A stretch of DNA of 64,000 nt from a virus. The position numbers and the translations under genes are program-made. The stretch is from IMG/VR virus record IMGVR_UViG_3300020207_000012, positions 1-64,000 of that record; one strand, given 5' to 3'. This document shows positions 4,449 to 39,779 of this stretch, piece after piece. Numbering within the stretch: the first letter of the stretch is position 1; every line of letters begins with the position of its first letter. The notes under the pieces are model-generated. The model searched no databases and was not told the DNA's origin. It was given only the letters and a program-made list of their open reading frames with translations.

Positions 4449-5557
4449 ACTTTTCTCTTTGGTATTTTACTATCGGCTGAACTTACACAACTTTTGCTAA
4501 TACAAGGCATCGGTTTATCAAATAGTTTAAATCCACTCTCAATATATCCTAATGGTTGATCTGCACAACTATATGAACGTTTGATGGATCCGTCAGGTTC
4601 ACGTATAATAATTCCTTGATATCCACTGTTACAACTCCATCCTTCAAAATTATTAAAGTTAAAAGCATTGAAACGTTCTGCTTGGTCCATATACCACTTC
4701 TTACCTTTTGAATCAGTGAACTCTACCTGCATATGCCATGGAACGCTTTTATCATTTTCACCAATAGCGTACTGTGGCATTTCAAATGTAGGCTTCGGTC
4801 TACCCTCCCATTTTCTTTTTACTTCAGTATAAGCCATTTGAGGCATACCATTCCACAAACGCTTCATTTGTTCTTCTGTATATCCTTCAACAACTTTTGA
4901 CGCTGTTGGGTCACTTTGGGGTTTGAGGGTAACGTTGATTCCTTGCTCGTGGAAGAAAAGAGCATTTTCCCAATCTTTTTCAAACCACTCGGGAACCATG
5001 ACCATGTTGATTGTAATCTGTACATCGTGTTCCTGACACAGGATTAATTTGTCTGCAAATTCCTGCATCTTCTCCTTCGTGTCTAAATGCTCTGTATGTA
5101 AACTTGCTGTAATACTTGCTCTATGAAAAGGTTTCGCTCTTTCCACATAATCCTCAAACCACTTAAGTGGGCGAGAACAATTACTAGTCATATGTATACT
5201 AGTATAGTTAGTATTAGGAACATCATCAGCCAAATGGCCCAGTATGTCCAAGTATCCAGGGTGGAAGGTAGGCTCGCCCCCACTAAGACTAAAGTGAAAA
5301 CTATTAAATCCATTATCACGTGCTTGCCTCTTTATTTCATCTACTGTTGCTAGACACAACTCTGTTGGTCTGTGATCTTTTCTGTCACTTCTGGCATAGG
5401 GCCAGCAATAACTACATCTATAGTTACAGAAGCGTCCAAGTAACCATGACACTGTAAATAAGTCACGGTAAAGTAATGTACGCTGTCCTACTTGTACTAA
5501 ATCATCAAAAGGTATTTTAGTAAAGTCATACTCACTCCATTTTAAGTCTTCACTCAT
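4445..5557 (-). CDS. rSAM-1: radical SAM protein with C-terminal auxiliary-cluster domain
   Basis: Radical SAM enzymes use a [4Fe-4S] cluster on CxxxCxxC to split S-adenosylmethionine into a 5'-deoxyadenosyl radical. Here the motif is CNYRCSYC (first Cys ~44), followed by the SAM-binding FSLSGGEPTFHPG. The C-terminal third has extra cysteines (WSCNSGYQG, YSCADQ, CISKSC) laid out like a SPASM/twitch domain holding one or two further clusters, typical of enzymes acting on peptides or other large substrates. I start at ATG 5557, which forms an ATGA overlap with the upstream PP-loop gene; an ATG at 5575 would overlap more. It is the last gene of the operon that begins at 14050. It resembles rSAM-3, -14 and -15. 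Substrate unknown. Confidence 0.85.
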   Translation of the reverse strand: MSEDLKWSEYDFTKIPFDDLVQVGQRTLLYRDLFTVSWLLGRFCNYRCSYCWPYARSDRKDHRPTELCLATVDEIKRQARDNGFNSFHFSLSGGEPTFHPGYLDILGHLADDVPNTNYTSIHMTSNCSRPLKWFEDYVERAKPFHRASITASLHTEHLDTKEKMQEFADKLILCQEHDVQITINMVMVPEWFEKDWENALFFHEQGINVTLKPQSDPTASKVVEGYTEEQMKRLWNGMPQMAYTEVKRKWEGRPKPTFEMPQYAIGENDKSVPWHMQVEFTDSKGKKWYMDQAERFNAFNFNNFEGWSCNSGYQGIIIREPDGSIKRSYSCADQPLGYIESGFKLFDKPMPCISKSCVSSADSKIPKRKV

Positions 5558-6180
5558 AGTCGTCCAAATCCCCATTGTCTTTCTTCACACCACCAACAAT
5601 AACCACACTGTTCTACTGTAGGATCAATGTCTGGTAGATGTTTCATCGTGTCATCCATCCATTCACAACTACTAGTTAACTCAAACAAATCTAATAAGTT
5701 ATGTTTTCTATATAAATTAGCAATACCACGTTTATCTATATTAGCAAATGGTAATCTAACTTTACCATCAAACAGAATTTCAGGGCGATTACCGTCTGGT
5801 GTTCTATCATCTACTGGACCATCTTTACTAATGAAACTCTCAACGACATCTGCCGGCGGATTAGCTGTAGCACCATTATAAAAACAACTTATAGTATTAC
5901 TATCTAATAATGAACTAAGATCCTCGTTCAAGTTTTCTAATGTCTGATGTGGTATATGTCTTAATCTATGGTCATAGTTTGTAAATCCAGTAGCATTGCT
6001 ACAGTACTCTATGATAGAAGGAGTTCTTTTTGCATTACGTTCAAATTTATCTGCTGCTGCTACTGTACATATGTACATTTTATTTTTATGTACAGACATC
6101 AGTAAGTACAATAGAAGTGCGCTATCTGCACCTCCACTGACTGATACTCCTATAGGTTCATTCGGTGTTTCTATAATCAT
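5554..6180 (-). CDS. PP-loop ATP pyrophosphatase, QueC-like (copy 1)
   Basis: The 208-residue protein begins with the PP-loop SVSGGADSALLLYLL (about residues 12-26), the ATP-binding signature of N-type ATP pyrophosphatases that adenylate a substrate carbonyl. Its C-terminus has SSCEW, then CGYCWWCEERQWGF, a four-cysteine zinc site spaced as in QueC (7-cyano-7-deazaguanine synthase). QueC turns carboxy-deazaguanine to preQ0 using ammonia. No QueD, QueE or GTP cyclohydrolase homologue is evident in the window, so activation or amidation of another carboxylate is equally possible. It lies between two rSAM genes with short overlaps on both sides. A second, diverged copy is at 10418-11296. Confidence 0.78.
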   Translation of the reverse strand: MIIETPNEPIGVSVSGGADSALLLYLLMSVHKNKMYICTVAAADKFERNAKRTPSIIEYCSNATGFTNYDHRLRHIPHQTLENLNEDLSSLLDSNTISCFYNGATANPPADVVESFISKDGPVDDRTPDGNRPEILFDGKVRLPFANIDKRGIANLYRKHNLLDLFELTSSCEWMDDTMKHLPDIDPTVEQCGYCWWCEERQWGFGRL

Positions 6181-7130
6181 AATTCTTCTTTTATAAATGT
6201 ATCACGCTTCATTTGCTTACATACTTGCATACAGCGAGGAACAGGATTATCCCCATCCCAACTATCAATAATGCCCTTCCACACTTTACTGTTTATGGCA
6301 TCTTCAATACTTGCGTTTTCTAAATTTATCGTATTTTTATAATCGTTTTCTTCTAGTAGTGTTTCAAATTCATCTTTGTGAATACCTGTTACATTATATT
6401 CCATCATTTTACTATTTAAATGACAACAAGGTATTACGTTACCAGTATGATTAATAAAGATACGCTTTTGATTTCCATATTTACAACTCACATATGGTAT
6501 CTCTACTGCGTTATCTATGTCTTCAGTCTTTGCCGCTTTCACACCTTTAGTGTCTTTACGATGACTAATAATAGTTTTAAAATTTTTAAACCCTTCGTCA
6601 GATGCTTTTTGTTTTGCTTCTTCCATCTGATGTTCGTTATGTTCAAAAACAATGAACTGCCAATTACTTCGACCACCTGCTGCGTTAAATGCTTTATAGT
6701 TTTGTTCTACTTTTTTAAAGCTACTGCCTTCTCTATAAACTTCACTTAGTTCATCACTTCCATCGATTCCCCAGGTAACTGCGTGGCTCTCTGGTAGTAG
6801 TCCTGCTAAGTCTGTCCACCATTGTGGGTGACGCAAACTGCCATTAGTAGCAATGTTAATATGCGCACCCCAATCAGCAAAGTGTCTTATGATATCAAAG
6901 AATTGTGGGTGCGATGTGGGTTCGTCTACACTGCCACAAAAATTTATAATCTTAATACTTGGAAACATATCTTTTTGAAATCGTTCACGTATTGTATCAA
7001 TTGTAATATATTCTTTGTTTAATATTTTATCAGCATGTTTAGATATAACTCTAAAACATCCTTTACATTGGATGTTACAAAAACTTGTTAGTTCTATATC
7101 TAACCATTCTATTGTTTTCATATCCCACAT
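6177..7130 (-). CDS. rSAM-2: radical SAM/SPASM-like, HNEH subgroup
   Basis: The cluster motif CNIQCKGC is at residues 18-25, very near the N-terminus. In place of the usual GGEP it has FCGSVDEPTSHPQ. A central IVFEHNEHQMEEA motif is shared with rSAM-9 and rSAM-11. The C-terminal part has CKYG, IPCCHLNS and CMQVCKQ, a cysteine set like SPASM domains. The length of 317 residues is compact for the group because the charged linker present in the relatives is short. It sits 12 bases after the nitroreductase and overlaps the PP-loop gene by 4 bases. An alternative start is the internal ATG at 7121. Its substrate is unknown. Confidence 0.83.
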   Translation of the reverse strand: MWDMKTIEWLDIELTSFCNIQCKGCFRVISKHADKILNKEYITIDTIRERFQKDMFPSIKIINFCGSVDEPTSHPQFFDIIRHFADWGAHINIATNGSLRHPQWWTDLAGLLPESHAVTWGIDGSDELSEVYREGSSFKKVEQNYKAFNAAGGRSNWQFIVFEHNEHQMEEAKQKASDEGFKNFKTIISHRKDTKGVKAAKTEDIDNAVEIPYVSCKYGNQKRIFINHTGNVIPCCHLNSKMMEYNVTGIHKDEFETLLEENDYKNTINLENASIEDAINSKVWKGIIDSWDGDNPVPRCMQVCKQMKRDTFIKEEL

Positions 7131-7142
7131 TATGTATTCTCT

Positions 7143-7772
7143 TTATATTACATATGTTTTTATAGATTTACTATGAGAAACTATATTTCTAAAAACAGTA
7201 CCATCATCATTTAGTACAGTATTCCACGTATGTTCTTTATTAGGAAAACCTATACCCAATTGATAGTGTGGTTTTGAAAAAAATTCAATATCTGTTTCGC
7301 CTGTAACTTCTGTTACTAATTCAGCAATATCTTTTGAATCAAAACATTGATTGTATCCGGTACGGTATCCTAAAGCATTCGCTGCAAATGCTACAGCGCC
7401 ACTGCTAATTCCCATAGCAGTTCTGGCATTTAATAACCATGGATCAAAAAATCCTTGAGTGTTTTTCCAATCTCCAATGCCTTCTTTTTTAAGTTCAAAC
7501 CAAGTAAACACCACAGGTGCATCAACTTGTGCGTTTCTACCTACAGTTTGTTGATTATCTGGATCTTCTGCCAATTCATAAAATTTACGATTTAAATCTC
7601 TATCGGTTGATACTACTAATCTGTAAAATTCATCATTAGATTTAGTAGGCATGTTTATTGCTATATCAATTAGCGCATGTACATGTTCTTCTGGAACCGA
7701 TTGTGTATGATCCCAGTTACGTTGGCAATGTTCAGCGTTTTTGCTTGCTTCAATTAATTCATTTACATTCAT
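7143..7772 (-). CDS. Nitroreductase-family FMN oxidoreductase
   Basis: The 209-residue protein has the nitroreductase fold pattern: an N-terminal RNWDHTQSVPEEHVHALIDIA with the basic FMN-contact region, PTKSNDEFYRLVV, then NARTAMGISSGAVAFAANALGYRTGYNQCFD, which corresponds to the helix and loop near the flavin, and a final GIGFPNKEH segment like the conserved xGxP[ND] motif. Members reduce or oxidise small molecules with NAD(P)H and FMN, including BluB-like ring cleavage and flavin dehydrogenases in natural-product pathways. Within an rSAM operon it most likely performs a redox tailoring step. It overlaps rSAM-3 by 4 bases (ATGA). Physiological substrate is not predictable. Confidence 0.78.
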   Translation of the reverse strand: MNVNELIEASKNAEHCQRNWDHTQSVPEEHVHALIDIAINMPTKSNDEFYRLVVSTDRDLNRKFYELAEDPDNQQTVGRNAQVDAPVVFTWFELKKEGIGDWKNTQGFFDPWLLNARTAMGISSGAVAFAANALGYRTGYNQCFDSKDIAELVTEVTGETDIEFFSKPHYQLGIGFPNKEHTWNTVLNDDGTVFRNIVSHSKSIKTYVI

Positions 7773-8983
7773 TTTGTGTTCTCAAATATACTCATGTCTT
7801 CAATGTGTTGAGGTAAAATACTCATTAGTTCATCACGTTCAATACTCTTAGGTGTACACATACCGCATCCACAATGCTTTCCAGGACCTAGAGGGCATGT
7901 TATAATAGGCATTGTTTTATTTTCTATATTAGTACGGAACTCTTCTATAATCTTATCGCATTCTGAAATAGATCCAATTGGACCACGTGTACCATCAAAA
8001 CGTGCTTGACAAGTTTGGTGATGCCAGATAGTATCTGTTTGTTGTTCAATATGTAAAAAGAACCAGTTGACACTACATTGCCAGTTTCGAAACTTAGCAA
8101 ACTCTAAAAATGTGCTTTTACTCCAGCAACCATCTGTACCGCAAGTTTCCATTGTGCGACTACCACAACACGGTCTACCCAACTGTCTAGCAAATTTCTT
8201 TTCTTCTGTTTTTTCGACTTGTACAGCACCAGCTTCGTGTCCTACTTCTGCTTCTGCTTCTTCCGTAGTTTTATCTTTATTAAGTGCTGCATTTTTATCT
8301 GCCCAATAATCTTTCATCCACTGTAATTGTTCTTCAGTATATTTATGGGCATAACTATTTTTACTATCTTCGTGTTCACCAATCATACGCGGAACGTAAC
8401 CGATACCATCACGTTCGAAACGCATACATAATTCTTTACATTCATCCCAATATTCAGCATGGAACATAACATTAATTTTGATTGGGAATCCTTTTTCAGT
8501 TAGATAGTAAATGTTATTAACAACTTGCTTTTTTAAACTTGAATGTGCTTCCGCATGGTAACTGATAGTCATAAAGCCATAGTTTTCGCAAACACTGTCT
8601 GCCATCTTTTTACCGAAAGCACCGTTACTAGTAATAGTCAAGTTTAGTCTATAATCATCTTTATAATTTTCACGCCATGTTTGCTGTAGCCATTCGCCAA
8701 ACTCTAAAAAGTTTGGATTGTTTGTAGGTTCACCACCAGTAAAATTGATGTTTATACCTTTATTTTTTTTATAAGGCATCATTAAATTTGCGTAATCAAA
8801 AATAAATCTGCCAGTCTTTTTTAAAGTTTCTAAATTAGCATGTGGTGAAAAGTTATCGTGTCTATGTGGTGGACAATATGTACAGTCATAGTTACAACGT
8901 CTACCCACATCCCACGTTACAGTAAGATTGTCACCATCCAGCAAATTGATTGCTGTAAAATCAGTGTATTCTAAATCTTTCAT
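7769..8983 (-). CDS. rSAM-3: radical SAM protein with cysteine-rich C-terminus
   Basis: CNYDCTYC lies at residues 30-37, preceded by TVTWDVGRR as in rSAM-14, and followed by INFTGGEPTNNPNF for SAM binding. A glutamate-rich charged insert (around residues 238-265) separates the core from a cysteine-rich tail: RPCCGSR, ETCGTDGCW, WQCS, HQTCQARFDG and finally CPLGPGKHCGCGMCTP, the likely auxiliary Fe-S site. At 404 residues it is longer than rSAM-1 because of the insert. It starts with an ATGA overlap with rSAM-4 and ends with another into the nitroreductase, so the operon is tightly coupled. Substrate unknown. Confidence 0.85.
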   Translation of the reverse strand: MKDLEYTDFTAINLLDGDNLTVTWDVGRRCNYDCTYCPPHRHDNFSPHANLETLKKTGRFIFDYANLMMPYKKNKGININFTGGEPTNNPNFLEFGEWLQQTWRENYKDDYRLNLTITSNGAFGKKMADSVCENYGFMTISYHAEAHSSLKKQVVNNIYYLTEKGFPIKINVMFHAEYWDECKELCMRFERDGIGYVPRMIGEHEDSKNSYAHKYTEEQLQWMKDYWADKNAALNKDKTTEEAEAEVGHEAGAVQVEKTEEKKFARQLGRPCCGSRTMETCGTDGCWSKSTFLEFAKFRNWQCSVNWFFLHIEQQTDTIWHHQTCQARFDGTRGPIGSISECDKIIEEFRTNIENKTMPIITCPLGPGKHCGCGMCTPKSIERDELMSILPQHIEDMSIFENTK

Positions 8984-10431
8984 TTTATTGGAGTCTCCAA
9001 AAATTCTATTATGTCCGGATGAATGTAATCATTATAACATTGATTTCTACTCATGTCAAACACTTTTATTTCTTTTAGCATATTCAATCTATGTTGTTCT
9101 GTTATTTCTAAATCTAAGTTTGCTTCTAAGAAAGAAATACCACTTATCATATTAGTATGATAATAATCATTATTATGACTATAATTTTCTTTGATATTTT
9201 TAAATTTTTCTATCAAGTCTAACTTTATATGTTTAGGTAAAAACTTAACATTTATGTATTTTTCTTCGGGCCAAAGCAAGTCTAAAAAGAATACAGCAAA
9301 TTCATTTGATTTTCTACCATACTCTTTATGTAAACTATAATGAAACTCTACTAAATCCTCTAAGTAATGTGCATTTAGCACACTAAGAACGACATTGAAA
9401 CTAAAGTTTTTTATGAATCCATATGGTGTTCTTTTATAATTAATATCTTTGACAGATTCTAAAATATTTCTTAAACTCTTTTCTAATACTGAAAATTTCA
9501 TAGGGTATCTTATATATTCATAATTTTTCCCATATCCATCGATACTACAATTTAATACAAGACCGTCAAACTTTTTTAACTTTTCTATATTTTCATTTGA
9601 AAACTTAGTAGCATTAGTATGGAACTCTAACATAATATTTTTTGAGGCTCCAGTTTCAATAGCCGTATCTAAAAACTGTATAAAAGGTTTACTCATAAGA
9701 GTTTCACCACCAGTTGCTTTTATATGTTTTAAATTATGTATATTGTCTAATATATTTTCCCACTGTTTTCCGTCTTTCCAGTTGTATACTTGGTATTCGC
9801 CACCTATGTATAATTCTTGATCCGTTCTCTTTTGTTCTTCTAACGATAATTCAGTAAGAGAATTTTCTTTTATGATAGTATCTCTGCGTTTCTGCCAATC
9901 AAATCCTTGAATACCACTTGTGTCCACATTGTTATCGGCAAAATATTGATAGTCTAATCTAAGTTTATTACTTAAACCTGGTTGACACATACGACATCTC
10001 AAATTACAGTTTTCACCAAACGCAAAATCAATAGAACTTAATTTTGGATTTTCTATAAGATCATCTAATTCGTCTTCGTCTGTTATTTTTAATAAGCCAG
10101 GAGGCATGCTGTCTAATCTATAACTATAAACGTCATCTCCATTTCCGTTTTCTTCCATCTTCCAACACGTAGCACATGAAGGATGTCTTCTGTTAGTTAA
10201 CGCATACTCTCTTATTTCATTCATCGTCTTGCCATGAAATATTTCTTCTGCGGTAATAGTATCAGGATTAGATATCAGTTCTATGTGGTTATTTAACGGA
10301 TCAGGCATATCAGGACGTATCGAATTACAGCACGGCGCAGCATTCGTAATGCCATACTTGTAATGCCAAGTCTTTAACGCCAGTAATGAAAATGGAAACC
10401 AGCAAAAAGTATTATCTTTAGTTGGTTTCAC
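8980..10431 (-). CDS. rSAM-4: radical SAM with N-terminal twitch-like domain
   Basis: In this group the auxiliary cysteines precede the core: FCWFPF (Cys10), APCCNS (34-35) and SCATCWKMEE (86-89), then the radical SAM motif CNLRCRMC at 142-149. IKATGGETLMSKPF is the SAM-binding strand, with Glu kept but Pro replaced. A subgroup hallmark YEYIRYP follows. The C-terminus is long and helical. The order twitch then rSAM matches the known family called twitch domain-containing radical SAM proteins. The start is GTG at 10431, overlapping the PP-loop gene by 14 bases, with AAGGAAAA just upstream. Substrate unknown; seven proteins of this subgroup occur in the window. Confidence 0.82.
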   Translation of the reverse strand: MKPTKDNTFCWFPFSLLALKTWHYKYGITNAAPCCNSIRPDMPDPLNNHIELISNPDTITAEEIFHGKTMNEIREYALTNRRHPSCATCWKMEENGNGDDVYSYRLDSMPPGLLKITDEDELDDLIENPKLSSIDFAFGENCNLRCRMCQPGLSNKLRLDYQYFADNNVDTSGIQGFDWQKRRDTIIKENSLTELSLEEQKRTDQELYIGGEYQVYNWKDGKQWENILDNIHNLKHIKATGGETLMSKPFIQFLDTAIETGASKNIMLEFHTNATKFSNENIEKLKKFDGLVLNCSIDGYGKNYEYIRYPMKFSVLEKSLRNILESVKDINYKRTPYGFIKNFSFNVVLSVLNAHYLEDLVEFHYSLHKEYGRKSNEFAVFFLDLLWPEEKYINVKFLPKHIKLDLIEKFKNIKENYSHNNDYYHTNMISGISFLEANLDLEITEQHRLNMLKEIKVFDMSRNQCYNDYIHPDIIEFLETPIK

Positions 10432-11296
10432 CTAACTTTTCCTTTGCTGTTGCTTTTGCCCATTCACGTTCGGCACACCAATAACAGCCTCTATTAGGAT
10501 CATCTGATAACTGATCGCACGTGGGTAGTGGTGTTTCGCCATGTACATATTTGGTGTGATCCACAAAATCATCTGGGAATATAACTTTATCACCTTCACA
10601 ACTACGAGTAGTGTTAAGTAAATCTTCCCAACCACGTCTATAATATTGTGCCATAATAAAGTCTTTGGTGATAAGTTTCCAAGGATGAACCAGTACTGGA
10701 TCTCTGAAGGCTGTATCATCTTTTTCAATATATTGTGGACATACGCTGGTAGTTGATAATCTTTCTTCATTCCATACTCTATCCCATGGACCTTTGGTAT
10801 GATTTACCACATCAGGTGCTGGATTATTTGTAATAAAATTATATACAGCATCTAACTTATATGTGTGAACAGCAAAACTATTGAAACTCTGTGTACATTG
10901 CCTATCACCGGTTGTCCCTAGTTTCTCTATAATACCAATAGCGCCTTCTTCTAACTCTGGTGGAATAAAATTCTGAATACGTTCCATACAAACATTTGGG
11001 AACATTTCACGTATTTTATTATATACTTCTACACTAATAGGTGCTGCCCAAGGTCTATTATTCCAAACTCTTACGTTTGTTAAAAAATAGATTGCTGTGT
11101 TGTTTCCATGTTTTTCAATTAACTCTGCTAGTATCGCTGTGCCAACAGCACTATCTGCGCCGCCACTAACATTTACACCAACACGTTTCCAAGTCGGATC
11201 ATACGGATATAATGCCTCGTCTACTTGATGTAATACATCAGTACTGATATTGTGCATTTCATAACTTTTATTACTTAAACTAACATCAAATGCCAT
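10418..11296 (-). CDS. PP-loop ATP pyrophosphatase, QueC-like (copy 2)
   Basis: VNVSGGADSAVGTAIL (about residues 42-57) is the ATP-binding PP-loop. Downstream, HPWKLITKDFIMAQYYRRGW resembles the QueC region that follows the active site, and the C-terminus has TRSCEGD, LPTCDQL and RGCYWCAEREWA, giving four cysteines in a zinc-site-like order. At 292 residues it is longer than copy 1, with an insert around residues 80-150. The two are clearly diverged, suggesting different substrates or sequential steps rather than a recent duplication. It overlaps rSAM-5 upstream by 11 bases and rSAM-4 downstream by 14. Adenylation of a carboxylate or carbonyl in the rSAM pathway product is the simplest inference. 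Confidence 0.78.
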   Translation of the reverse strand: MAFDVSLSNKSYEMHNISTDVLHQVDEALYPYDPTWKRVGVNVSGGADSAVGTAILAELIEKHGNNTAIYFLTNVRVWNNRPWAAPISVEVYNKIREMFPNVCMERIQNFIPPELEEGAIGIIEKLGTTGDRQCTQSFNSFAVHTYKLDAVYNFITNNPAPDVVNHTKGPWDRVWNEERLSTTSVCPQYIEKDDTAFRDPVLVHPWKLITKDFIMAQYYRRGWEDLLNTTRSCEGDKVIFPDDFVDHTKYVHGETPLPTCDQLSDDPNRGCYWCAEREWAKATAKEKLGETN

Positions 11297-24857: not shown

Positions 24858-24886
24858 ATTATAACATATTAATCGTCACTTGTAAA
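24858..24886 (-). promoter_or_regulatory. Sigma70-type promoter inside the 3' end of the carbamoyltransferase gene
   Basis: On the minus strand TTTACA (24881-24886) is followed after 17 nt by TATAAT (24858-24863). The -10 is a perfect match and the -35 is 5 of 6. It would drive the genes from 24834 down to rSAM-11 independently of the late promoter at 27285. Confidence 0.65.
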
Positions 24887-26404
24887 CACCGAAATACCAT
24901 AATGTTTGGCAAAATCTTCAGCATCCTTTTCATCATTTACTATTGGTTGTCCCTTTATGTTTAATGATGTATTGACTAACATCGGACATCCTGTTTCTTT
25001 TTTGAACTTATATAGTAATTCATATAGCTCAGGATGTTGGTCATGTCTTACAGTCTGTACACGTGATGTTCCGTCTTTGTGAATGATAGCAGGTAATTCA
25101 TCAGGATATTTACATTCAGCAACAAACTGCATATATGGGCTTTCTGTCACATTTTTTGGCATGTAAAAATAATCATTTACGTCTTCTTCTAAAATCATCG
25201 GTGCAAAAGGTCTAAACTTTTGTCTGCGTTTGATTTCATTCATACGGTCTTTAATATCATCACCACGTGGGTCTGCTGTTAATGTACGATTGCCTAGCGC
25301 ACGTGGACCGAACTCTGCTCTTCCGTTTGCTATACCAACAATCTCACCACGTAATAATGCTGCTAATGCTTTCTCTACTGGATATGATCCTTTAATCTCA
25401 TGTCCTAAATAAGGTGTTTCCCAATGAATACGATTATTAAAATATTTTTGTGTAGCGCCGATACAAGAACCTGCATCACCTGGGTTAGGCATGATCCATA
25501 TATTTCTAAATGCTGCTGTGATTTTAGAGTTAGCACTACAGTTTAGCGCACAGCCTCCCATAATTATTATGTTTGTACTAAGAGACATATTTCTAGCTGT
25601 ATATACAATACGCTCCAACATATGTTCATACACCAATTGAGTTGCGGCAGCTATATCAAACAAGTCTTGTTCTTCTTGTAGTTCTTCTAAAAACCAACGA
25701 CAACCTCTATGTAGATTTTCTTTAAATGATATTAATTTGAATACTTCTCCGCTGCGGTCTTCTAACTTAATACCAAAATCATCCATTAAATGTTGTACTA
25801 AAGTTTTTCCATTATGTCTGCGATACGGATCACCATACGCTGCCATACCCATAAGAATGTATTCGTCTTCTTGTGGCTTTAGTCCTAGTCGCTGTGTCAT
25901 AGCTGAATAGAAAAGACCTACACTGTTAGGATAATCCTGAGAATATAGTTTTTCCAGTTTGTCTCCTCGACCACGCCAGATACTAAGAGTTTCAAATTCA
26001 CCTATAGAATCAATAACAACGACAGCCGCTTCCGCAAGTTTACTTGTGTAATAACCAGAGGCAGCATGTGTGTAATGATGCGATTGATATTCAATTTTGA
26101 TACCTGCTAACTGTGGGAACTTTTTCTTAATATAACGCTTGGGCATTTCGTCCCAATCAAATACAAAATCCCATTGTTGTGCTGTTGCTTGTCTAAATTT
26201 CTTTAGTAGAGGTTTTTCATACCAAGCAATAACATCTGGTTTACCATACGATAACGCAGCATTTATAATCGCATCATTTAGCAGTGGATCGTTTTTAATC
26301 TTACTGTAGCGTTCACTATGTGAAGCATATAATATGCGACCATCTTCAACAACTGATACTGCCGCATCGTGGTTTAACGCACCGCTAATTCCCATAACTC
26401 TCAT
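24869..26404 (-). CDS. NodU/TobZ-family carbamoyltransferase
   Basis: This family transfers a carbamoyl group from carbamoyl phosphate to sugar or antibiotic hydroxyls via carbamoyl-AMP. The 511-residue protein has the N-terminal Kae1-like part: VMGISGALNHDAAVSVVEDG, HSERYSKIKND, the metal-ligand histidines in HHYTHAASGYYTS, DSIGEFETLSIW and GGCALNCSANSKI. The C-terminal YrdC-like part has EFGPRALGNRTLTADPR and KFRPFAPMILEED. All motifs look intact and length is typical. A good Shine-Dalgarno (taggag) precedes the ATG. It follows a 37-residue microprotein, an association seen with such enzymes in phages. Likely role: O-carbamoylation of a sugar or of the rSAM-pathway product. Confidence 0.92.
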   Translation of the reverse strand: MRVMGISGALNHDAAVSVVEDGRILYASHSERYSKIKNDPLLNDAIINAALSYGKPDVIAWYEKPLLKKFRQATAQQWDFVFDWDEMPKRYIKKKFPQLAGIKIEYQSHHYTHAASGYYTSKLAEAAVVVIDSIGEFETLSIWRGRGDKLEKLYSQDYPNSVGLFYSAMTQRLGLKPQEDEYILMGMAAYGDPYRRHNGKTLVQHLMDDFGIKLEDRSGEVFKLISFKENLHRGCRWFLEELQEEQDLFDIAAATQLVYEHMLERIVYTARNMSLSTNIIIMGGCALNCSANSKITAAFRNIWIMPNPGDAGSCIGATQKYFNNRIHWETPYLGHEIKGSYPVEKALAALLRGEIVGIANGRAEFGPRALGNRTLTADPRGDDIKDRMNEIKRRQKFRPFAPMILEEDVNDYFYMPKNVTESPYMQFVAECKYPDELPAIIHKDGTSRVQTVRHDQHPELYELLYKFKKETGCPMLVNTSLNIKGQPIVNDEKDAEDFAKHYGISVFTSDD

Positions 26405-31789: not shown

Positions 31790-32665
31790 TTAAATGAAAC
31801 ATTCTTTCTTTCCGTAAATGAATGCTTGTTTTATTAAATCTGAATCGTTTGTTACTTTAAATGTTAAATCTGTTGTCATCCTTGGTAATCGTACGGTTAC
31901 ACTTTCACATGTATCTGGAAAGTTATCATTACAATATTTTAAAAATTTCACAGCATCAAACTTTGGGTATTCTACATAACCTCTATCATCAGGTTTTTCC
32001 CAAGATGAATGATAACTGTAAAGATGTAAATGTTTTATTCTTCCTGCTATTCTTTCTATGAAGCCAAGAAGATTTCCTTCATATGATTTTTCTAAATCTT
32101 CTAAAGTTGAAATATACTTGTTTACTTTTAATATGTTAACAGGGATTTCAATTCTACTTTCATCTTTAGGTTTCATTAAGATTATACGCAGAGGCTTATC
32201 GATTATTTGATGAGATTGGCTTATTGTACTTCCTGGATGAATTGTATTTCTATGAACGTTGCTTAATACAGGAGGCGACTTAACATCTCCTTCTATCAAA
32301 TCACTACATAATACTAGCATACGATAGAATCTTGCGAATAGATTATCAAAGTCTGCTTCATCGTTTTTGTCTATAAGCTGTAAGTCTTTTAAAAAATCTA
32401 GACCTTTTAAAACGCCACTACCATATGGTATACTATGATATTTTTCTGAAAGGTTGCCATCTAACCACAGTTGACTCATGTTATGTTCCCTTGTGTCTAT
32501 AAAACAATCTATCAAACTAAATTCTTTTAATACGTCTTTCCAATCTTCGTATGTTGGTTGTGCTATCGTACGCCATGAGTGAGATGGATGAGTCAATAAC
32601 GCATAGTTTACATCATCATCTCTATTATCTAAAAATATCTTTTTAAATAATTCATGTTCATTCAT
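31790..32665 (-). CDS. Unknown protein between cytidylyltransferase and B12-type rSAM
   Basis: The 291-residue product has no motif I can assign. It starts MNEHELFKKIFLDNRDDDV and has a segment SNVHRNTIHPGSTISQSHQI (about 137-156) rich in His, Ser and Thr that could be an active site, followed by beta strands (LRIILMKP, ESVTVRLP). It overlaps rSAM-12 by 8 bases upstream and ends 12 bases before the cytidylyltransferase start, so it is a member of this pathway by position. It might be a partner or transferase for the sugar route. Confidence 0.6.
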   Translation of the reverse strand: MNEHELFKKIFLDNRDDDVNYALLTHPSHSWRTIAQPTYEDWKDVLKEFSLIDCFIDTREHNMSQLWLDGNLSEKYHSIPYGSGVLKGLDFLKDLQLIDKNDEADFDNLFARFYRMLVLCSDLIEGDVKSPPVLSNVHRNTIHPGSTISQSHQIIDKPLRIILMKPKDESRIEIPVNILKVNKYISTLEDLEKSYEGNLLGFIERIAGRIKHLHLYSYHSSWEKPDDRGYVEYPKFDAVKFLKYCNDNFPDTCESVTVRLPRMTTDLTFKVTNDSDLIKQAFIYGKKECFI

Positions 32666-34796
32666 TTATAAATTCAACTCCATCGAACTCTGATACGTTT
32701 CCTGTTAGTTCAAAATACTGTTTATCAAAAGACATATCTTCTCTTTTTAGTTCATGTTCTTCTACTGACCTGTCTTCGTTTTGTGCTACATGCTCAAATT
32801 CATACCAGCATTTAAAGCTATAGTCGCCGTTGTCATCAACTTCCCACTCTGCTTCGCCTGATAGCATAGTGGCAAGGCTCACACCAAACTCCTGCATATC
32901 TAGTTCCGGATCCCAAGTCATTTTAAATTTATGTCCACTGAACGCTTGATACATAATCCACATATGTGGTAAGTTTTCATTTGCCAATGTAGCAGCTAAA
33001 TTATTTTGGGCGGTATCACCACTAAAAATATTAAAATTTTGATTTGAACGTTGTGGTATGTAATCCTTATATTCTCCGGGATTATTCTGTTCAAATTCTA
33101 CAAATTTACTCATTCCCGGACGACTCTGAGAATTAATTATAGTTCCTTCTGCTTCGTTGATACACATAGACAACCATTGATTCATGTACTTCAATCGTAA
33201 TGCCCTATGTAGAATAGTATTCTCATAATTTTCTGTATACCAATTACTCATAAACTTATTATCCCATGGAGTTTCACTCCATTGAATTTTATAGTTTTTC
33301 CAGTTCTTGTTCATATCACTCAGTGGAGCATCACCGCATGTCATGCCCGGCGAGATAACCGTGGCCCAATTTCGTATATTATACAAAACGTGTAAACTAT
33401 GACACCATTCAGCAGGTCCTTCAGTTGGGAATCCGACGACCCAGTTAATATGATTTTCTATTCCTGCTATTTTAGCATCACGTAAGTTGTCTTCTATTTC
33501 CCAAACTTTAATTTTCTTTTTCATATCAAGTAGAACCTTTTCACTTCCACTTTCAACTCCAAAACTTAACAAGCTACAACCACTCGCTTTGATTTTATGA
33601 AAGAATTCTAAATCCATACGTCCATCACATCTAGCATAGCTATTCCATCTGATGTCCATACTACGTTCAATTATCTGATCTACTAAATCTCTAAACGCTT
33701 TTATATTACCATTTACTAAACTATCAACAAACCAAAATCGTCTTGTACCATAAGTATCAATCTGATGCTGCATTTCATCTATAACATTTGTACTTTCACG
33801 GGATCTAAACTTCCAAAAGTGTGTCTCGGAACAGAAACTACATAGAGCAATACAACCTCTACTAGTTTCAATACTAACACCGCCTTGGTGAGAATATAGA
33901 GACAAATCATAATCTGAATAATCTGGAAAAGGCATTTGGTTTAAATCAAGTCTGCTATTTGCTCCTCCGAAAACATGAGGACCATCTTCTTTTGAATATT
34001 CACTATAGTTTTCCAAGTAACCCAATAACATTTCTTCGCCTTCACCTATAATTCTAACATCATAGTTTTCTATTATATCTGCCAAAGGATATGGATGTCT
34101 TTTATGAGGATTGGGTTCTTCATAATCATCTAACCAGTCTTGGAACGCTTCTGGGCCACCTATTAATATTGTGATATCGGGCGCAAGACGCTTTAATTCT
34201 TTTATCATATACGCACTAGGAACAGTATTTGTAGCATACAAACTGAAGCCAACAAATCTAGCACCATCGTTAATAATACGCTGTACTGTTTCGTCTAATA
34301 GTGGAGTTAACGCAGGTTTTATTTTAGTATCATAGTTTGGAACAATCCAATGATCCCAGTATATTGCGTCCCATGGATCATAATCTAACTTATCTTTAAG
34401 ATAATGATAAGATTCAATATTAGTATCATATACTGTTACTTCATAACCATTTTCTCTCAGCAATGATGATATACGTGCTGCGTTATATGGAGGAAATATA
34501 ATACCCCAACTAGGACAAACAACAAAAGATATTTTATCATTTTTTCTAGGAGGATTTAAACTAGACCAATACTCATATCCAGTATCCTCTCTTTGACTCC
34601 AATATGTATAATTTTTAGAAACAGAAGAAACAGGATCTGTTCCTAAATGACTGTTGGCATGACGCATTTCTTCTTCATGCTGAATAACAGTTAGAACAAT
34701 TTGATCTCTGTCTTCGCTTTTAAAATCATACTTTGGTTTTGACTTTTTTTGAGAGGTCAGCGAGTTTTGTTCTTTGCTTTCGTTTCTCTGCGTCAT
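32658..34796 (-). CDS. rSAM-12: B12-binding-domain radical SAM protein
   Basis: This 712-residue protein is built as N-terminal extension (~1-85), a cobalamin-binding-like Rossmann domain (ISFVVCPSWGIIFPPYNAAR, ARFVGFSLYATNT, ITILIGGPEA), then a radical SAM core with CIALCSFC near residue 314 in SIETSRGCIALCSFC. SGCSLLSFGVESGSEKVLLD is typical of the Elp3/MiaB-type core. Class B rSAM methylases of this architecture transfer methyl groups from methylcobalamin to unreactive carbons or phosphinates. The C-terminal ~200 residues are unassigned. The gene starts 71 bases inside rSAM-13 with AGGAAG before the ATG; ATG 34667 is an alternative that removes the overlap. Confidence 0.85.
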   Translation of the reverse strand: MTQRNESKEQNSLTSQKKSKPKYDFKSEDRDQIVLTVIQHEEEMRHANSHLGTDPVSSVSKNYTYWSQREDTGYEYWSSLNPPRKNDKISFVVCPSWGIIFPPYNAARISSLLRENGYEVTVYDTNIESYHYLKDKLDYDPWDAIYWDHWIVPNYDTKIKPALTPLLDETVQRIINDGARFVGFSLYATNTVPSAYMIKELKRLAPDITILIGGPEAFQDWLDDYEEPNPHKRHPYPLADIIENYDVRIIGEGEEMLLGYLENYSEYSKEDGPHVFGGANSRLDLNQMPFPDYSDYDLSLYSHQGGVSIETSRGCIALCSFCSETHFWKFRSRESTNVIDEMQHQIDTYGTRRFWFVDSLVNGNIKAFRDLVDQIIERSMDIRWNSYARCDGRMDLEFFHKIKASGCSLLSFGVESGSEKVLLDMKKKIKVWEIEDNLRDAKIAGIENHINWVVGFPTEGPAEWCHSLHVLYNIRNWATVISPGMTCGDAPLSDMNKNWKNYKIQWSETPWDNKFMSNWYTENYENTILHRALRLKYMNQWLSMCINEAEGTIINSQSRPGMSKFVEFEQNNPGEYKDYIPQRSNQNFNIFSGDTAQNNLAATLANENLPHMWIMYQAFSGHKFKMTWDPELDMQEFGVSLATMLSGEAEWEVDDNGDYSFKCWYEFEHVAQNEDRSVEEHELKREDMSFDKQYFELTGNVSEFDGVEFINE

Positions 34797-36414
34797 TCAT
34801 TCTTCCTATTGCTGCCGCTAAATCTGGTAGACTTTCTTTCCAGTCTTCTTTTCTTATTTTATCAAGTCTAATTGTGTCTCTTTTAAATTTTTCCCACATA
34901 TTAGGGTCTTGTTCTTTTGCCCACATTTGTCCTAACGCTTGCTTTAAAGCAGTTTCAGTAATACCTGCCCATATCATATCATGTTGTGTACAAGTGTCGA
35001 TTGGCCATCTTTTCCAGATATGAGTTATAAATCTATTATATAGATCCTCTACTTCTTTTTTAAGATATGTAGGTAAATTTTGTATACAATATTGCTCTGG
35101 ACCAAATACTAAATGTATATGCATTTCATTACTAAGACGCTTAAAGTTTTGTTCTTTTATCCAATACATAAAGTCTGGTACATGAAACACATTCATAATA
35201 CTAAGAGTTAAAGTAACTTTAGCTTCTAAATTATCAAGTCTGGGATCAGTATCTAATTCTTTTAGTAATCTTTCAGTCTTACTCCATTTTCCAGGATTTC
35301 GTATGTATTCAAAATGACTATCCATACCATCAAGACTCATCCCTATTACTACTTTTTTGAATTGTGCCCAAAGATCGAAAAAGCTCTTACTACTCGCAGC
35401 CATATTACTATTATATTCTAACTCTATATTTTTCGATAAACCTTTTTCAACAATCATTTCTAACAATTCTCTATGCTTATGATTGATAGTAGGTTCACCT
35501 CCTGTAAAATATAATCTTTCTATATACTTTAAGTTTTTTGTAATATCAGTCCATAGTTGTGAACCTTCATACCAACTTTTCATATGAGGTATCTCAACCT
35601 GACCTTTAGAATTTGTTATGATTTCAGCATGTTCTCCGTCTAAATCAATTGTAAATGGTTTATCAGATTTTTTACTGTCTACCATTTCCATATAATCTTT
35701 ATACCACAAATCACTATTTGATGGACCACAAGACCTGCATTTTAAATTACATTTATTACCAAAACGTAGATCCCACCATCTAATAGGAAAATCTTTGTTT
35801 TTAATTTTTCCATCTTTTTTAGTTTTTTCATATGCATTTAGTACTACATCTGGAAAATGTTTATTGGCATATTTTCTTCTTGACATGCCATACGGCACAG
35901 CATCTTCTTCGTCAAAACATAATTTACACGCAGATGGTCTTTTACCTTTCAACATATCACTTCGCAACATCTTCCAAAATTTTGCGTTTCTGTTTCTGCT
36001 TATCTTATCATTATAATTCAATAACGTACCATCATCTTTTTCAATAAGTCCTACATTAGATGACTCATCCGTGTATATCATTTGACAACAAGCACGAATA
36101 CTACCATTCGCATTAGTACCAGCATGGATCCATGGAATAGTACAGAATGAACTTTGGTCTGCTTCTCTTAGTAATTTAGATTCTAATAAATCATTGTAAA
36201 CCTCACCGAGTCTATCTTTTACAATATCTATTATATCATCATCTATTATTGGTGATCTAAGTACGCTAAGTAATACATCTTGGTCTTCATCAAATGTTGC
36301 TACAATTTCAAGTACCTCACGTGGACAATCTGGATCTAGAATCATGTCTATACGTTGCTCAGGCGTTCTGTATATGTCTGGATTCAGATCAAATCTACTA
36401 TCTACATCACTCAT
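34726..36414 (-). CDS. rSAM-13: radical SAM with N-terminal helical and twitch-like domains
   Basis: The first ~85 residues are a helical, HEAT-like segment (ILDPDCPREVLEIVATFDED) not seen in the other twitch-first proteins. Then come SFCTIPWIHAGTNANG (Cys91), RACCQM (109-110), CKLCFDEED (163-166) and the core motif CNLKCRSC (222-229). YFTGGEPTINHKH and HFEYIRNPGKW are the SAM-binding and subgroup motifs. At 562 residues it is the longest of the twitch-first group, with a basic C-terminus. It resembles rSAM-5 most (FC-x-x-PW-x-H). It starts 2 bases after rSAM-14 ends. Substrate unknown. Confidence 0.82.
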   Translation of the reverse strand: MSDVDSRFDLNPDIYRTPEQRIDMILDPDCPREVLEIVATFDEDQDVLLSVLRSPIIDDDIIDIVKDRLGEVYNDLLESKLLREADQSSFCTIPWIHAGTNANGSIRACCQMIYTDESSNVGLIEKDDGTLLNYNDKISRNRNAKFWKMLRSDMLKGKRPSACKLCFDEEDAVPYGMSRRKYANKHFPDVVLNAYEKTKKDGKIKNKDFPIRWWDLRFGNKCNLKCRSCGPSNSDLWYKDYMEMVDSKKSDKPFTIDLDGEHAEIITNSKGQVEIPHMKSWYEGSQLWTDITKNLKYIERLYFTGGEPTINHKHRELLEMIVEKGLSKNIELEYNSNMAASSKSFFDLWAQFKKVVIGMSLDGMDSHFEYIRNPGKWSKTERLLKELDTDPRLDNLEAKVTLTLSIMNVFHVPDFMYWIKEQNFKRLSNEMHIHLVFGPEQYCIQNLPTYLKKEVEDLYNRFITHIWKRWPIDTCTQHDMIWAGITETALKQALGQMWAKEQDPNMWEKFKRDTIRLDKIRKEDWKESLPDLAAAIGRMNDAEKRKQRTKLADLSKKVKTKV

Positions 36415-36416
36415 TC

Positions 36417-37811
36417 TTACTGTTCCTTAAAAAATTCTATTTCGTTATCACTATATTTTACAAGACTACTAGCATCATTTATATCTCTGATTGGTACCAA
36501 ACTAAGAGTACCTTTCATTCTTCCATTTGCACCATTGGTATGCCATTGTGGTATGTTTAAAATTCTATCTCTTAGTTTTTGCGCTCTATCTAAAAATCCT
36601 GGAGGGGTCATAAGTTTAATTTCTAACCATAGATCATCATCAACATCATCATGGTGCTGCATGATTATTTTACAATTTTCGATAAATCTGTCTTCGTTTC
36701 CACGGTATAAATCCATACTAGCAAAATGTGCGCTCATATTGACACTATTTATATACTGTGTTGCCTCACGCCAAAACTTAGTACTGCGACTACCATTTGT
36801 AGTTACCAGCGTCCATTGATTTTTAGATTTCAAATGCTTTAAGATATCAATAAATTGAGGATGCATTGTAGGCTCTCCTCCACCAAAGTTCCATCTGATT
36901 TGATCTCCGCCGCTCCAATGTTCAATAATCATATCTATCGTTTCGATAACTGATTCATATGTAGGAAATCTTTCTGTGTTACTATGAACTGCTGGCCAGC
37001 AATAATCACAAGCATAATTACATCTTCTACCAATATCCCATAATATCTGATATGGTATAGGAAAGTTCATTTCTACAGCGACTCCTTTGTCAATAGATTG
37101 TGCTGTGTAATCATCGCCACCTCGTTCCGTTCCAGAATAACCGTTATGAGTCACATCTAAAAACTTTATATGCTTTTTTGTTTTTGCTTTACTTAATATA
37201 ACATCAGCACCGCAGCCACAATTATTAAATGGACATACTACATACTCTTCGGGTATATCTATACCTTCACGGATATTACCTAATAGACCCCAATTGTCTG
37301 GTATATCATCTAGTGTACTTTCCCATTTCCAAGCACTAGCAGTTGTATCTATTTTTTCTTTTATCATATTTCTACCTAAATTACTAAAGAATGCTTCTTC
37401 AGTTTCTTTTAGGGTCTGCTGTAATTTTACGTGTTGTTCACAAGTTTCCCAGCCTATTTTTGGAAGAGGCCAACCCCCTTCTGTATTTTCATTATACCAT
37501 TCAATATGAGGATATGGACCAAAAACACGTTCACGTTCAAGTCTCCATTCTTCTACAACTGTATTATAATGTGCGCTACTATTTCTGTGGCTACTAGCAC
37601 AGTTTGCATTCCATATGTTACCGTCGTAATCAATATAAAGTCCTCGGACACCCGCACTACACTTCCATCCCTTCCAAGAGTTATGACCTCTAGCAATCGC
37701 TTCGTCTACACTCATTCTAATGAACTTGCCATCCGAACCATACAAACGCAATTGCTTATTGTCTAGTGGGATGCTTGGATCTTCTTTAATCGGCATCTTC
37801 CAAAACCTCAT
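36417..37811 (-). CDS. rSAM-14: radical SAM with domains in permuted order
   Basis: Residues 1-~215 look like the auxiliary C-terminal domain of rSAM-15: WKGWKCSAGVRGLYIDYDG (Cys51), WNANCASSHRNSSAH (Cys71) and CPFNNCGCGADVILSKAK (193-200) match the WEGWYCWSG, FDGSVMIGWC and CTKSMCHCNFDIMSKK of rSAM-15. The radical SAM core follows at ~250-464 with RRCNYACDYCWP (264-271) and WNFGGGEPTMHPQF, and then the protein stops where an auxiliary domain would be expected. It could be a true circular permutation or a fusion left by deletion between two tandem rSAM genes. An alternative start is ATG 37796. It overlaps rSAM-15 at its start. Confidence 0.78.
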   Translation of the reverse strand: MRFWKMPIKEDPSIPLDNKQLRLYGSDGKFIRMSVDEAIARGHNSWKGWKCSAGVRGLYIDYDGNIWNANCASSHRNSSAHYNTVVEEWRLERERVFGPYPHIEWYNENTEGGWPLPKIGWETCEQHVKLQQTLKETEEAFFSNLGRNMIKEKIDTTASAWKWESTLDDIPDNWGLLGNIREGIDIPEEYVVCPFNNCGCGADVILSKAKTKKHIKFLDVTHNGYSGTERGGDDYTAQSIDKGVAVEMNFPIPYQILWDIGRRCNYACDYCWPAVHSNTERFPTYESVIETIDMIIEHWSGGDQIRWNFGGGEPTMHPQFIDILKHLKSKNQWTLVTTNGSRSTKFWREATQYINSVNMSAHFASMDLYRGNEDRFIENCKIIMQHHDDVDDDLWLEIKLMTPPGFLDRAQKLRDRILNIPQWHTNGANGRMKGTLSLVPIRDINDASSLVKYSDNEIEFFKEQ

Positions 37812-38793
37812 AACAATCAGCAGGTAATACTTTTTTACTCATAATGTCAAAGTTACAATGACACATACTTTTTGTACACATAGTAGGTTTTCTAGGCCAC
37901 TTGATATTCTTAGGGTCTTTCATATTACCAAATGCACCACCAACTCTACACCAGCCGATCATAACACTTCCGTCAAAATCTACAACAATCTGTTCTATGC
38001 CACTCCAGCAATACCAGCCTTCCCAGTCATTTGTTTTATCGTTAATAAATCTATGTGCGCTGCTGTTCTGCTTTAAATCATTCACATCGTCACACATATC
38101 CATACTACCGCGGTATATCTTCCACTGCTTATCATACTTGATTTTACTACCCAACAGTTTCCATTGGTCATCGATATATTTGATTTGTTCTTCACTGTAA
38201 GAGTAAAGAGTTTCACCAAAATCAATAATCAACGGCTGTAGTGCTAATGAGATATTAGGTATTTCAATAACTTTTTCGGCAACGTCTACACAAGTAGGCC
38301 AGATTTCAGGATTGTAATGCATCATAATATTAACATGTGTTCTACACTGTTGACTCATAATTTTAACAACTTCTAAAAAGTGTTCTGGATTTCCTTCTTC
38401 TGGATGAAAACTTAAACACACGTGGTCGAACTTTTCTTTATTCTTCTCCCACCATCTTATAGTTCTACTACTGTTACTGATAAATCCTATATCATGTCCT
38501 ATTTCTTTAATGTATTCAGCACACTTAACAAAGTCTTTCCATAGTGTAACTTCACCGCCTGTAAATTCAAAATATACAGTTCTAGGAGAGTAATGCTCAA
38601 CAACTTCATCGATAAAACCTTTAACTACGTCAAAATCATTCCATCCAAAGCTACCGTCGTTAAGAATACTAGGACAATAAGAACATGTAAAGTTACACAT
38701 GTTGCCTAAATTCCAATTAACTACGACCCAATCTTTACATTCTTCATGGTGATGATCTAGTCTATTATAAAAGTTCTGTGGTCCTAATGGCAT
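37786..38793 (-). CDS. rSAM-15: radical SAM with C-terminal auxiliary-cluster domain
   Basis: The 335-residue protein has VNWNLGNMCNFTCSYCPS (core Cys at 33, 37, 40), YFEFTGGEVTLWKDF (the Pro of GGEP is replaced), then a C-terminal part WEGWYCWSGIEQIVVDFDG, MIGWCRVGG and CTKSMCHCNFDIM, probably one or two extra clusters. It has the usual core-then-auxiliary order, in contrast to rSAM-14 next to it. A Shine-Dalgarno (taggag) precedes the ATG. It sits between a glycosyltransferase-like gene and rSAM-14 in the operon from 42477. Its substrate is unknown. Confidence 0.85.
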   Translation of the reverse strand: MPLGPQNFYNRLDHHHEECKDWVVVNWNLGNMCNFTCSYCPSILNDGSFGWNDFDVVKGFIDEVVEHYSPRTVYFEFTGGEVTLWKDFVKCAEYIKEIGHDIGFISNSSRTIRWWEKNKEKFDHVCLSFHPEEGNPEHFLEVVKIMSQQCRTHVNIMMHYNPEIWPTCVDVAEKVIEIPNISLALQPLIIDFGETLYSYSEEQIKYIDDQWKLLGSKIKYDKQWKIYRGSMDMCDDVNDLKQNSSAHRFINDKTNDWEGWYCWSGIEQIVVDFDGSVMIGWCRVGGAFGNMKDPKNIKWPRKPTMCTKSMCHCNFDIMSKKVLPADCYEVLEDAD

Positions 38794-38801
38794 AATAGCT
38801 C

Positions 38802-39779
38802 CTATCTATCCCAACCAGTCGATTTTTCTGTTGCTAGTGGATTAGCAACACGTTTTGGATTTGTATATACCTTCTTAAAGAATTGAGCAACCTCTGGGGT
38901 TGGATCACAAATCTCCATACCGATATCGTCTGCTAGTGTATCGCCTACTCTTAATACATCTTCGTATAATGTATCATAGTCCCATGTTAATCTAGTTGAA
39001 GTGCAAATCTCATCTCCACCTTCATACTGTGGGAATATCTCATTATAAAAATAATCATTAAACCAATCATAGCTAGATATACATTCTAACACAAAGTCAT
39101 CTTTAAAACAAACATCATGACATCCCAATCTAGCACCATATAAAGCCCAAAGCCCGTTTTCAACATCGGCGCCTATATTACACCATGTCAAAAGACGTTC
39201 ATAATTCTTTGGCCATAACCTGTCTTTGAACTCTTCTGGCTTTACACGATTACCTTCATCAAGTGACATTTTAACACCTTCACGGAAACCGGCACGAAAT
39301 GCTTGGAAAGGTGAACCTGCGTTAAACACCATTGAATATACGTTGTTCATATGAACATAATCTAAGTCCCAACAGAAGTCAACTTTCTTTGTTTCGTCTT
39401 CTGCGTTTTCGTGGGTTTTCATTTCTAGTACCAAGTCTACTGGCCAACATTTGATTCCGCCGTTACCGTAAACTAAACCATTAACAACATTCTTCGCACC
39501 CCAAGAAATAATAGAACGTGAAATATTTGTTTTTTCAGGAAAGACTAGTTCTAAATCAAAGAACTTTTTGTCAACTATATTATCACCATCAATTGTGATA
39601 AATCTATCGGTTTCGCTTGCCCTAGCACATGCTTTATGTGCGTTATCAAATCCTTTAACGCCATCTACTCTTTTTGCCCATGGGCATTTACGCAAAACAT
39701 CTGCCCAATGTTCTTCTTTGTTGGGTTCATCATAGCTTAGATAAAAAACATCTGTCTCAGCTACCCGCAAAATTGTCAT
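38802..39779 (-). CDS. Glycosyltransferase-like protein (GT-A, DxD), family shared with 23734-24834
   Basis: The 325-residue product starts ILRVAETDVFYLSYDEPNKE and contains AKRVDGVKGFDNAHKACARA and FITIDGDNIVDKKFFDLEL, where DGDN is the DxD-like metal and nucleotide-sugar site. VYGNGGIKCWP follows. The C-terminal WFNDYFYNEIF is shared in outline with the paralogue. It lacks the degenerate first module of that paralogue. The two copies lie in separate operons, each with rSAM genes. A nucleotide-sugar dependent transfer to glycan, protein or modified base is the likely chemistry. Confidence 0.68.
   Translation of the reverse strand: MTILRVAETDVFYLSYDEPNKEEHWADVLRKCPWAKRVDGVKGFDNAHKACARASETDRFITIDGDNIVDKKFFDLELVFPEKTNISRSIISWGAKNVVNGLVYGNGGIKCWPVDLVLEMKTHENAEDETKKVDFCWDLDYVHMNNVYSMVFNAGSPFQAFRAGFREGVKMSLDEGNRVKPEEFKDRLWPKNYERLLTWCNIGADVENGLWALYGARLGCHDVCFKDDFVLECISSYDWFNDYFYNEIFPQYEGGDEICTSTRLTWDYDTLYEDVLRVGDTLADDIGMEICDPTPEVAQFFKKVYTNPKRVANPLATEKSTGWDR

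Follow-up and report, generated by a model that had tools for sequence, protein, structure and literature searches.

Is a radical-SAM gene with its auxiliary domain ahead of its core a conserved rearrangement, or the product of a local accident? The question is posed by rSAM-14 (P0001), a protein of 464 aa encoded by one unbroken ORF of a marine phage (IMG/VR record IMGVR_UViG_3300020207_000012, of which positions 1 to 64,000, a stretch of 64,000 nucleotides, form the window analysed here). The initial annotation had proposed that the first half of this protein matches the C-terminal auxiliary domain of the neighbouring rSAM-15, that the core follows and ends without an auxiliary domain, and that a natural permutation or a deletion fusion of two tandem genes could each have produced this order. 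The two genes and their parts are as follows.

36417-37811, minus strand: permuted radical-SAM protein rSAM-14 (P0001), auxiliary domain and then core (ORF, Pfam, profile-profile alignment)
37596-37754, minus strand: auxiliary domain piece 1, residues ~20-72 (W46-KGW-C51 ... DYDG, C71); aligns to rSAM-15 230-282, and a normal-order HMM matches this piece in permuted relatives
37296-37595, minus strand: insert of ~100 residues (73-172) (AF2 secondary structure, alignments)
37164-37295, minus strand: auxiliary domain piece 2, residues 173-216 (C193-x4-C198-x-C200); aligns to rSAM-15 ~288-329, cysteines invariant in 35 relatives
37062-37163, minus strand: linker, residues 217-250, between auxiliary domain and core (segment-wise pairwise dN and dS)
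36420-37061, minus strand: radical-SAM core, residues 251-464 (CX3CX2C at 264-271, GGGEP at 310-314); PF04055 match, aligns to rSAM-15 24-210
37786-38793, minus strand: rSAM-15 (P0002), normal order (core, then auxiliary), overlapping the permuted gene by 26 bp

The Pfam match to PF04055 (Radical_SAM) is confined to the second half of rSAM-14 (residues 260-381; 49.3 bits against a cut-off of 29.5). It was the only one in a scan with E-values up to 1, in which the SPASM model had no match. The core motif, C264-x3-C268-x2-C271, has all three cysteines invariant among 35 aligned proteins. Profiles of the rSAM-14 family (35 permuted proteins) and the rSAM-15 family (34 normal-order proteins) were then compared, with E-values that are those of single comparisons. 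Residues 255-464 of rSAM-14 align to the rSAM-15 core (24-210; E 8.4e-36) and residues 20-216 to its auxiliary domain (230-329; E 8.5e-19, probability 99.1%), the latter at E 6.9e-22 when the auxiliary domains are aligned alone. The two alignments are non-colinear and complementary, and together they cover both proteins. The C-terminus of rSAM-14 is the last helix of the core, with Q464 paired to Q210 of rSAM-15, and the cut point falls within rSAM-15 residues 210-230, the core-auxiliary linker. Both parts of the domain assignment made in the initial annotation are borne out.

The auxiliary domain of rSAM-14 is interrupted at about residues 73-172 by a mostly helical insert that varies in length and is short or absent in compact relatives. 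BLASTP of the N-terminal half against rSAM-15 recovers a 23-residue piece only (E 4e-5). An HMM made from normal-order proteins only matches the auxiliary domain of permuted relatives as two pieces on either side of the insert, as in L007 (2.5e-12 and 1.3e-4). Except at the insert, the cysteine spacing is identical in rSAM-14 (C51-x19-C71 ... C193-x4-C198-x-C200) and rSAM-15 (C262-x19-C282 ... C306-x4-C311-x-C313). C71 is not conserved, being T in several relatives, while the four putative auxiliary ligands C51, C193, C198 and C200 are invariant among the 35 aligned proteins. At the other end of the gene (window 37796-37811), several relatives start at the residue aligned to M6, and the true start of rSAM-14 may therefore be M6 rather than M1.

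To what extent is this order shared? An HMM scan of all ORFs in the fetched loci, with models made from normal-order proteins only, gave 44 distinct auxiliary-then-core proteins and 174 normal-order proteins, counts that describe the fetched loci and not natural frequencies. Two further permuted genes have GTG starts. Scans of IMG/VR recovered swapped-order homologues at 100 to about 42% identity to rSAM-14, and compact permuted relatives of 303-356 aa are about 26-37% identical to it. Every swapped-order homologue comes from uncultured-virus contigs. Searches of annotated phages with rSAM-14 and rSAM-15 gave no match, and the compact relative L089 gave core matches only; in cellular genomes, a single narrow-query scan found nothing beyond a core match in Prevotella. 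Matches on plasmids were at first candidates for permuted cellular proteins, a reading rejected when the sequences themselves were read: the relatives from Nocardia, Photobacterium and Vibrio are in normal order without exception. An assembly or frameshift artefact was likewise rejected, because the rSAM-14-type ORF is intact in many independent contigs. The presence of the swapped form in dozens of diverse uncultured phages marks it as an old, conserved protein rather than a broken gene or the result of misassembly.

An independent check of the swapped order comes from NF038073 (STM4011 family), a curated model made elsewhere that contains the same two domains in normal order. Residues 17-85 of compact L089 match positions 187-254 of its 278, which form the C-terminal part of the model. 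Compact permuted relatives score 53.7 or less against a cut-off of 200, and NF038073 is not among the best 25 families for rSAM-14 itself. Two unusual ORFs also came up in these loci. In L033 (5001-5233) the start of an auxiliary-first gene, directly after an NF033640-like gene, is broken by the contig end and could be permuted or free-standing. In L084 (1120-3936) an ORF of 938 aa fuses a normal-order rSAM-15-like protein to another stretch of about 620 residues.

In pairwise comparisons of the permuted proteins, dN lies far below dS for the auxiliary, insert and core segments alike, although the ratios are rough, with many dS values near or past saturation. In the more distant pairs the linker is the fastest-evolving segment. 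Both halves of the permuted protein are under purifying selection.

With these data the deletion fusion can be weighed. The parts of rSAM-14 are obtainable from two tandem genes, and the gene immediately upstream is rSAM-15, whose auxiliary domain faces that of rSAM-14, a layout in which a recent deletion could have joined the auxiliary part of one gene, possibly rSAM-15, to the core of the next, leaving a local accident or a decaying gene. Against this stand the same order and junction in all 44 distinct proteins, which also show that the junction is no scar, the swapped-order homologues that other phage contigs encode at about 30% identity, and the purifying selection on the permuted protein. 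Dereplication at 70% identity left 25 permuted and 100 normal-order proteins for comparison. By identity to rSAM-14, rSAM-15 ranks only 69th (core) and 87th (auxiliary) of these 100, and its family is the best HMM match for just two of the 25 permuted cores and for none of the auxiliary domains. On these ranks and best-family matches we reject a recent fusion of rSAM-15 and rSAM-14, and we regard any recent deletion fusion as extremely improbable.

Instead, both halves of most members best match the same normal-order family, which is not that of rSAM-15, and an ancient circular permutation therefore fits better. That family, X298, comes first for 21 of the 25 permuted cores and 15 of the 25 auxiliary domains. 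The core and auxiliary trees agree: one clade holds 24 of the 25 permuted proteins in the core tree and 23 in the auxiliary tree (SH-aLRT 96 in each). Of the two origins offered in the initial annotation, the natural permutation is thus the one that the homologues, trees and family matches favour, and rSAM-14 very probably comes from a phage family of radical-SAM enzymes that underwent circular permutation long ago and has been conserved since. The core-first order is most likely ancestral, because it is the order in the plasmid relatives from Nocardia, Photobacterium and Vibrio.

The main rival to permutation is an ancient fusion of two paralogues, in which auxiliary domain and core came from different families before the phages diverged and were never one gene. 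The auxiliary tree, built on a short domain (85 columns), is weak and poorly resolved, and in some proteins the best core and auxiliary families differ; for rSAM-14 itself these are L032 and L028, by small margins. On the other hand, X298 has the highest mean score for both halves (101.5 bits for the core, 64.5 for the auxiliary domain). Core and auxiliary identity matrices are correlated at r 0.92 in the permuted set against 0.68 in the normal set, and this close covariation within the clade also speaks against separate sources, though it proves only joint inheritance since the junction formed. We consider such a fusion unlikely; where the two paralogues were close, it counts as one route to permutation.

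Did the permutation occur once? Constraining all 25 permuted proteins together gives a likelihood above that of the free quick search in both trees (AU p 0.54 for the core and 0.63 for the auxiliary domain). A single origin of the 25 representatives is thus not rejected, and the trees are compatible with it, short of proof. At least two independent permutations, one in the main clade and a separate one in L171 (perhaps also L169), would be a variant of the ancient permutation. Both halves of the L171 protein best match family L032, in the core tree it clusters with its own normal-order neighbour upstream, and in the unconstrained tree the auxiliary domains of L169 and L171 lie outside the permuted clade. 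Yet the one-clade constraint raises the likelihood in both trees, and the L171 rows are very long branches; we hold repeated permutation to be possible, if doubtful. At the locus itself (L171, 3338-5193), the very divergent permuted gene adjoins a normal-order gene, and a second permutation could explain it.

The route from a normal-order ancestor can be sketched from the position of the junction. A rearrangement of an ancestral core-auxiliary gene would have put the auxiliary iron-sulfur domain at the N-terminus and the core at the C-terminus, with both new termini within the old core-auxiliary linker and the old C-tail and N-terminal extension probably forming the new linker. The permutation may have arisen by tandem duplication with loss of the outer parts, or by fission at the linker and subsequent fusion, and the data are equally compatible with the two. 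Two loci point to the linker as a possible cutting site of the gene, in keeping with the fission-then-fusion route. In L169, the one contig from which this split arrangement is known, a core gene of 231 aa ends at the junction and is followed by a PP-loop ATPase gene and an auxiliary gene of 122 aa. In L208 (3953-5121) core and auxiliary domain sit in two ORFs, which share an ATGA overlap at that junction; this may be a true split, or possibly a sequence error, because close relatives of L208 are fused. The window has a member of the family to which L208 belongs:

7769-8983, minus strand: relative in normal order, with a longer linker (from the family whose member L208 is split at that junction)

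Seen whole, the L169 locus (4001-6617) carries in a row a permuted gene, the core-only gene, the PP-loop ATPase gene and the free-standing auxiliary-domain gene.

Would a permuted enzyme need a new architecture? AF2 with the permuted family predicts rSAM-14 with a pLDDT of 85.4 and a pTM of 0.79, against 91.7 and 0.88 for rSAM-15. The predicted auxiliary secondary-structure elements come in the same order in both proteins, the first five of them displaced by close to 211 residues. A circular permutation can keep the fold, as this shared order suggests, and a new topology for packing the auxiliary cluster against the core, which the initial annotation gave as one of two alternatives for a functional protein, need not follow. 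The best Foldseek matches of rSAM-14 span little more than one domain; Foldseek follows chain order, so permuted and normal forms are not comparable over both domains.

An auxiliary cluster ahead of the core is also known from other radical-SAM enzymes, which again removes the need for a new topology. TYW1, LipA and MiaB/RimO have their auxiliary cluster N-terminal to the core (PMC5352715), as rSAM-14 does, but with different cluster motifs; that review describes no homologue of them with the same domain at the C-terminus. The same order is found in NF033640 (N-terminal twitch radical SAM), to which the next gene belongs:

34726-36414, minus strand: P0003, NF033640 member (N-terminal twitch before core), next gene downstream of rSAM-14; 332 bits against a cut-off of 170

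The N-terminal domain of NF033640, however, is not detectably homologous to that of rSAM-14. As a control, hhalign aligned the N-terminal cluster domain of P0003 with the rSAM-14 auxiliary domain at E 0.11 and probability 0.5. Membership of rSAM-14 in NF033640 was rejected, with 34.8 bits against a cut-off of 170, from the core only. SPASM/twitch auxiliary domains have been described as C-terminal extensions of the radical-SAM core (PMC9012708). Enzymes of this kind (BlsE, SpeY, anSME, PqqE) are among the top structural matches of both rSAM-14 and rSAM-15, but their auxiliary domain is C-terminal, in contrast to that of rSAM-14, which is N-terminal (20-216) and lacks a Pfam SPASM match. In the rSAM-15-type phage proteins and the plasmid relatives, core and auxiliary domain are both homologous to those of rSAM-14 and stand in the opposite order.

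We found no description of permuted radical-SAM enzymes in the open-access literature searched, and open-access searches on N-terminal SPASM and on STM4011 likewise returned nothing. That a homologous auxiliary domain on either side of the core within one family was not found described is weak evidence of novelty, the search having been confined to open-access papers. With its relocated auxiliary domain, its normal-order sisters and the naturally split forms, this conserved family offers a natural test case for three questions: does it matter where in the chain the auxiliary cluster sits, is the domain able to act in trans, and how do the domain orders of radical-SAM enzymes change in evolution?

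By its motifs, the rSAM-14 core would carry a [4Fe-4S] cluster on C264/268/271 that cleaves SAM. By analogy with the normal-order relatives, an auxiliary cluster on C51/193/198/200 would lie near the active site and could serve in electron transfer or substrate binding. The substrate may be a peptide or a glycoconjugate, perhaps a virion component, and rSAM-14 may act on it together with its normal-order neighbour.

A relative of rSAM-15 lies upstream of most permuted genes: 20 of the 25 representatives have a same-strand normal-order gene upstream, 16 of them within 133 bp, a count inflated by loci that were fetched through the family of the neighbour. This adjacency suggests a further reading, compatible with the ancient permutation, in which rSAM-14 needs a complex with normal-order rSAM-15 in order to work, whether for domain exchange or for electron relay. 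The naturally split core and auxiliary genes also suggest that the auxiliary domain is able to act in trans. However, rSAM-14 itself keeps the core and auxiliary cysteines for two clusters, and around several permuted genes the fetched DNA contains no normal-order gene; an obligate partnership is therefore a tentative proposal with the chances against it. A broader version, a little less probable still, is that the auxiliary domain is a separable module, C-terminal, N-terminal or free-standing within one family, and that adjacent permuted and normal proteins would form complexes in which it acts in cis or in trans.

Other genes accompany the pair. Several phages have homologues of the window genes 42085, 41216, 40362, 38802, 37786, 34726 and 32658 near their permuted gene, and two of the genes in the window can be described as follows.

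38802-39779, minus strand: gene without a known family or Pfam match, a conserved neighbour often upstream of the rSAM-15/rSAM-14 pair
4445-5575, minus strand: a further relative in normal order, its auxiliary domain of the same type; HMM scores of 251 bits (core) and 101 bits (auxiliary), from a model whose building sequences included this protein

Window genes 41216, 40362 and 38802 have no Pfam match, and a glycosyltransferase-like label for them would thus be a mere impression from the sequence.

Normal-order relatives on plasmids offer a hint about substrates. In Photobacterium and Vibrio, rSAM-15 relatives adjoin a small protein rich in glycine, with VDGGG at the end of its N-terminal part, and the same loci carry an HlyD/peptidase-ABC exporter; these neighbours suggest a peptide substrate for the plasmid relatives, which might by analogy extend to rSAM-14. 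In both plasmid loci (L239, 3252-8374; L240, 1347-4591) the normal-order relative lies between a protein with a double-glycine-like leader and the HlyD/peptidase-domain ABC exporter, as is typical of peptides that are modified and exported.

The family enlarges the little-studied radical-SAM repertoire of marine phages; 12 radical-SAM genes have been reported in one T4-like viral genome (PMC5332604). Within the window, radical-SAM genes are unusually dense at 4445-24834 and 32658-38793, near long tail genes. Among them are apparent PP-loop ATPases at 5554-6180 and 10418-11296 (the latter without a Pfam match), and a carbamoyltransferase lies beside them at 24869-26404.
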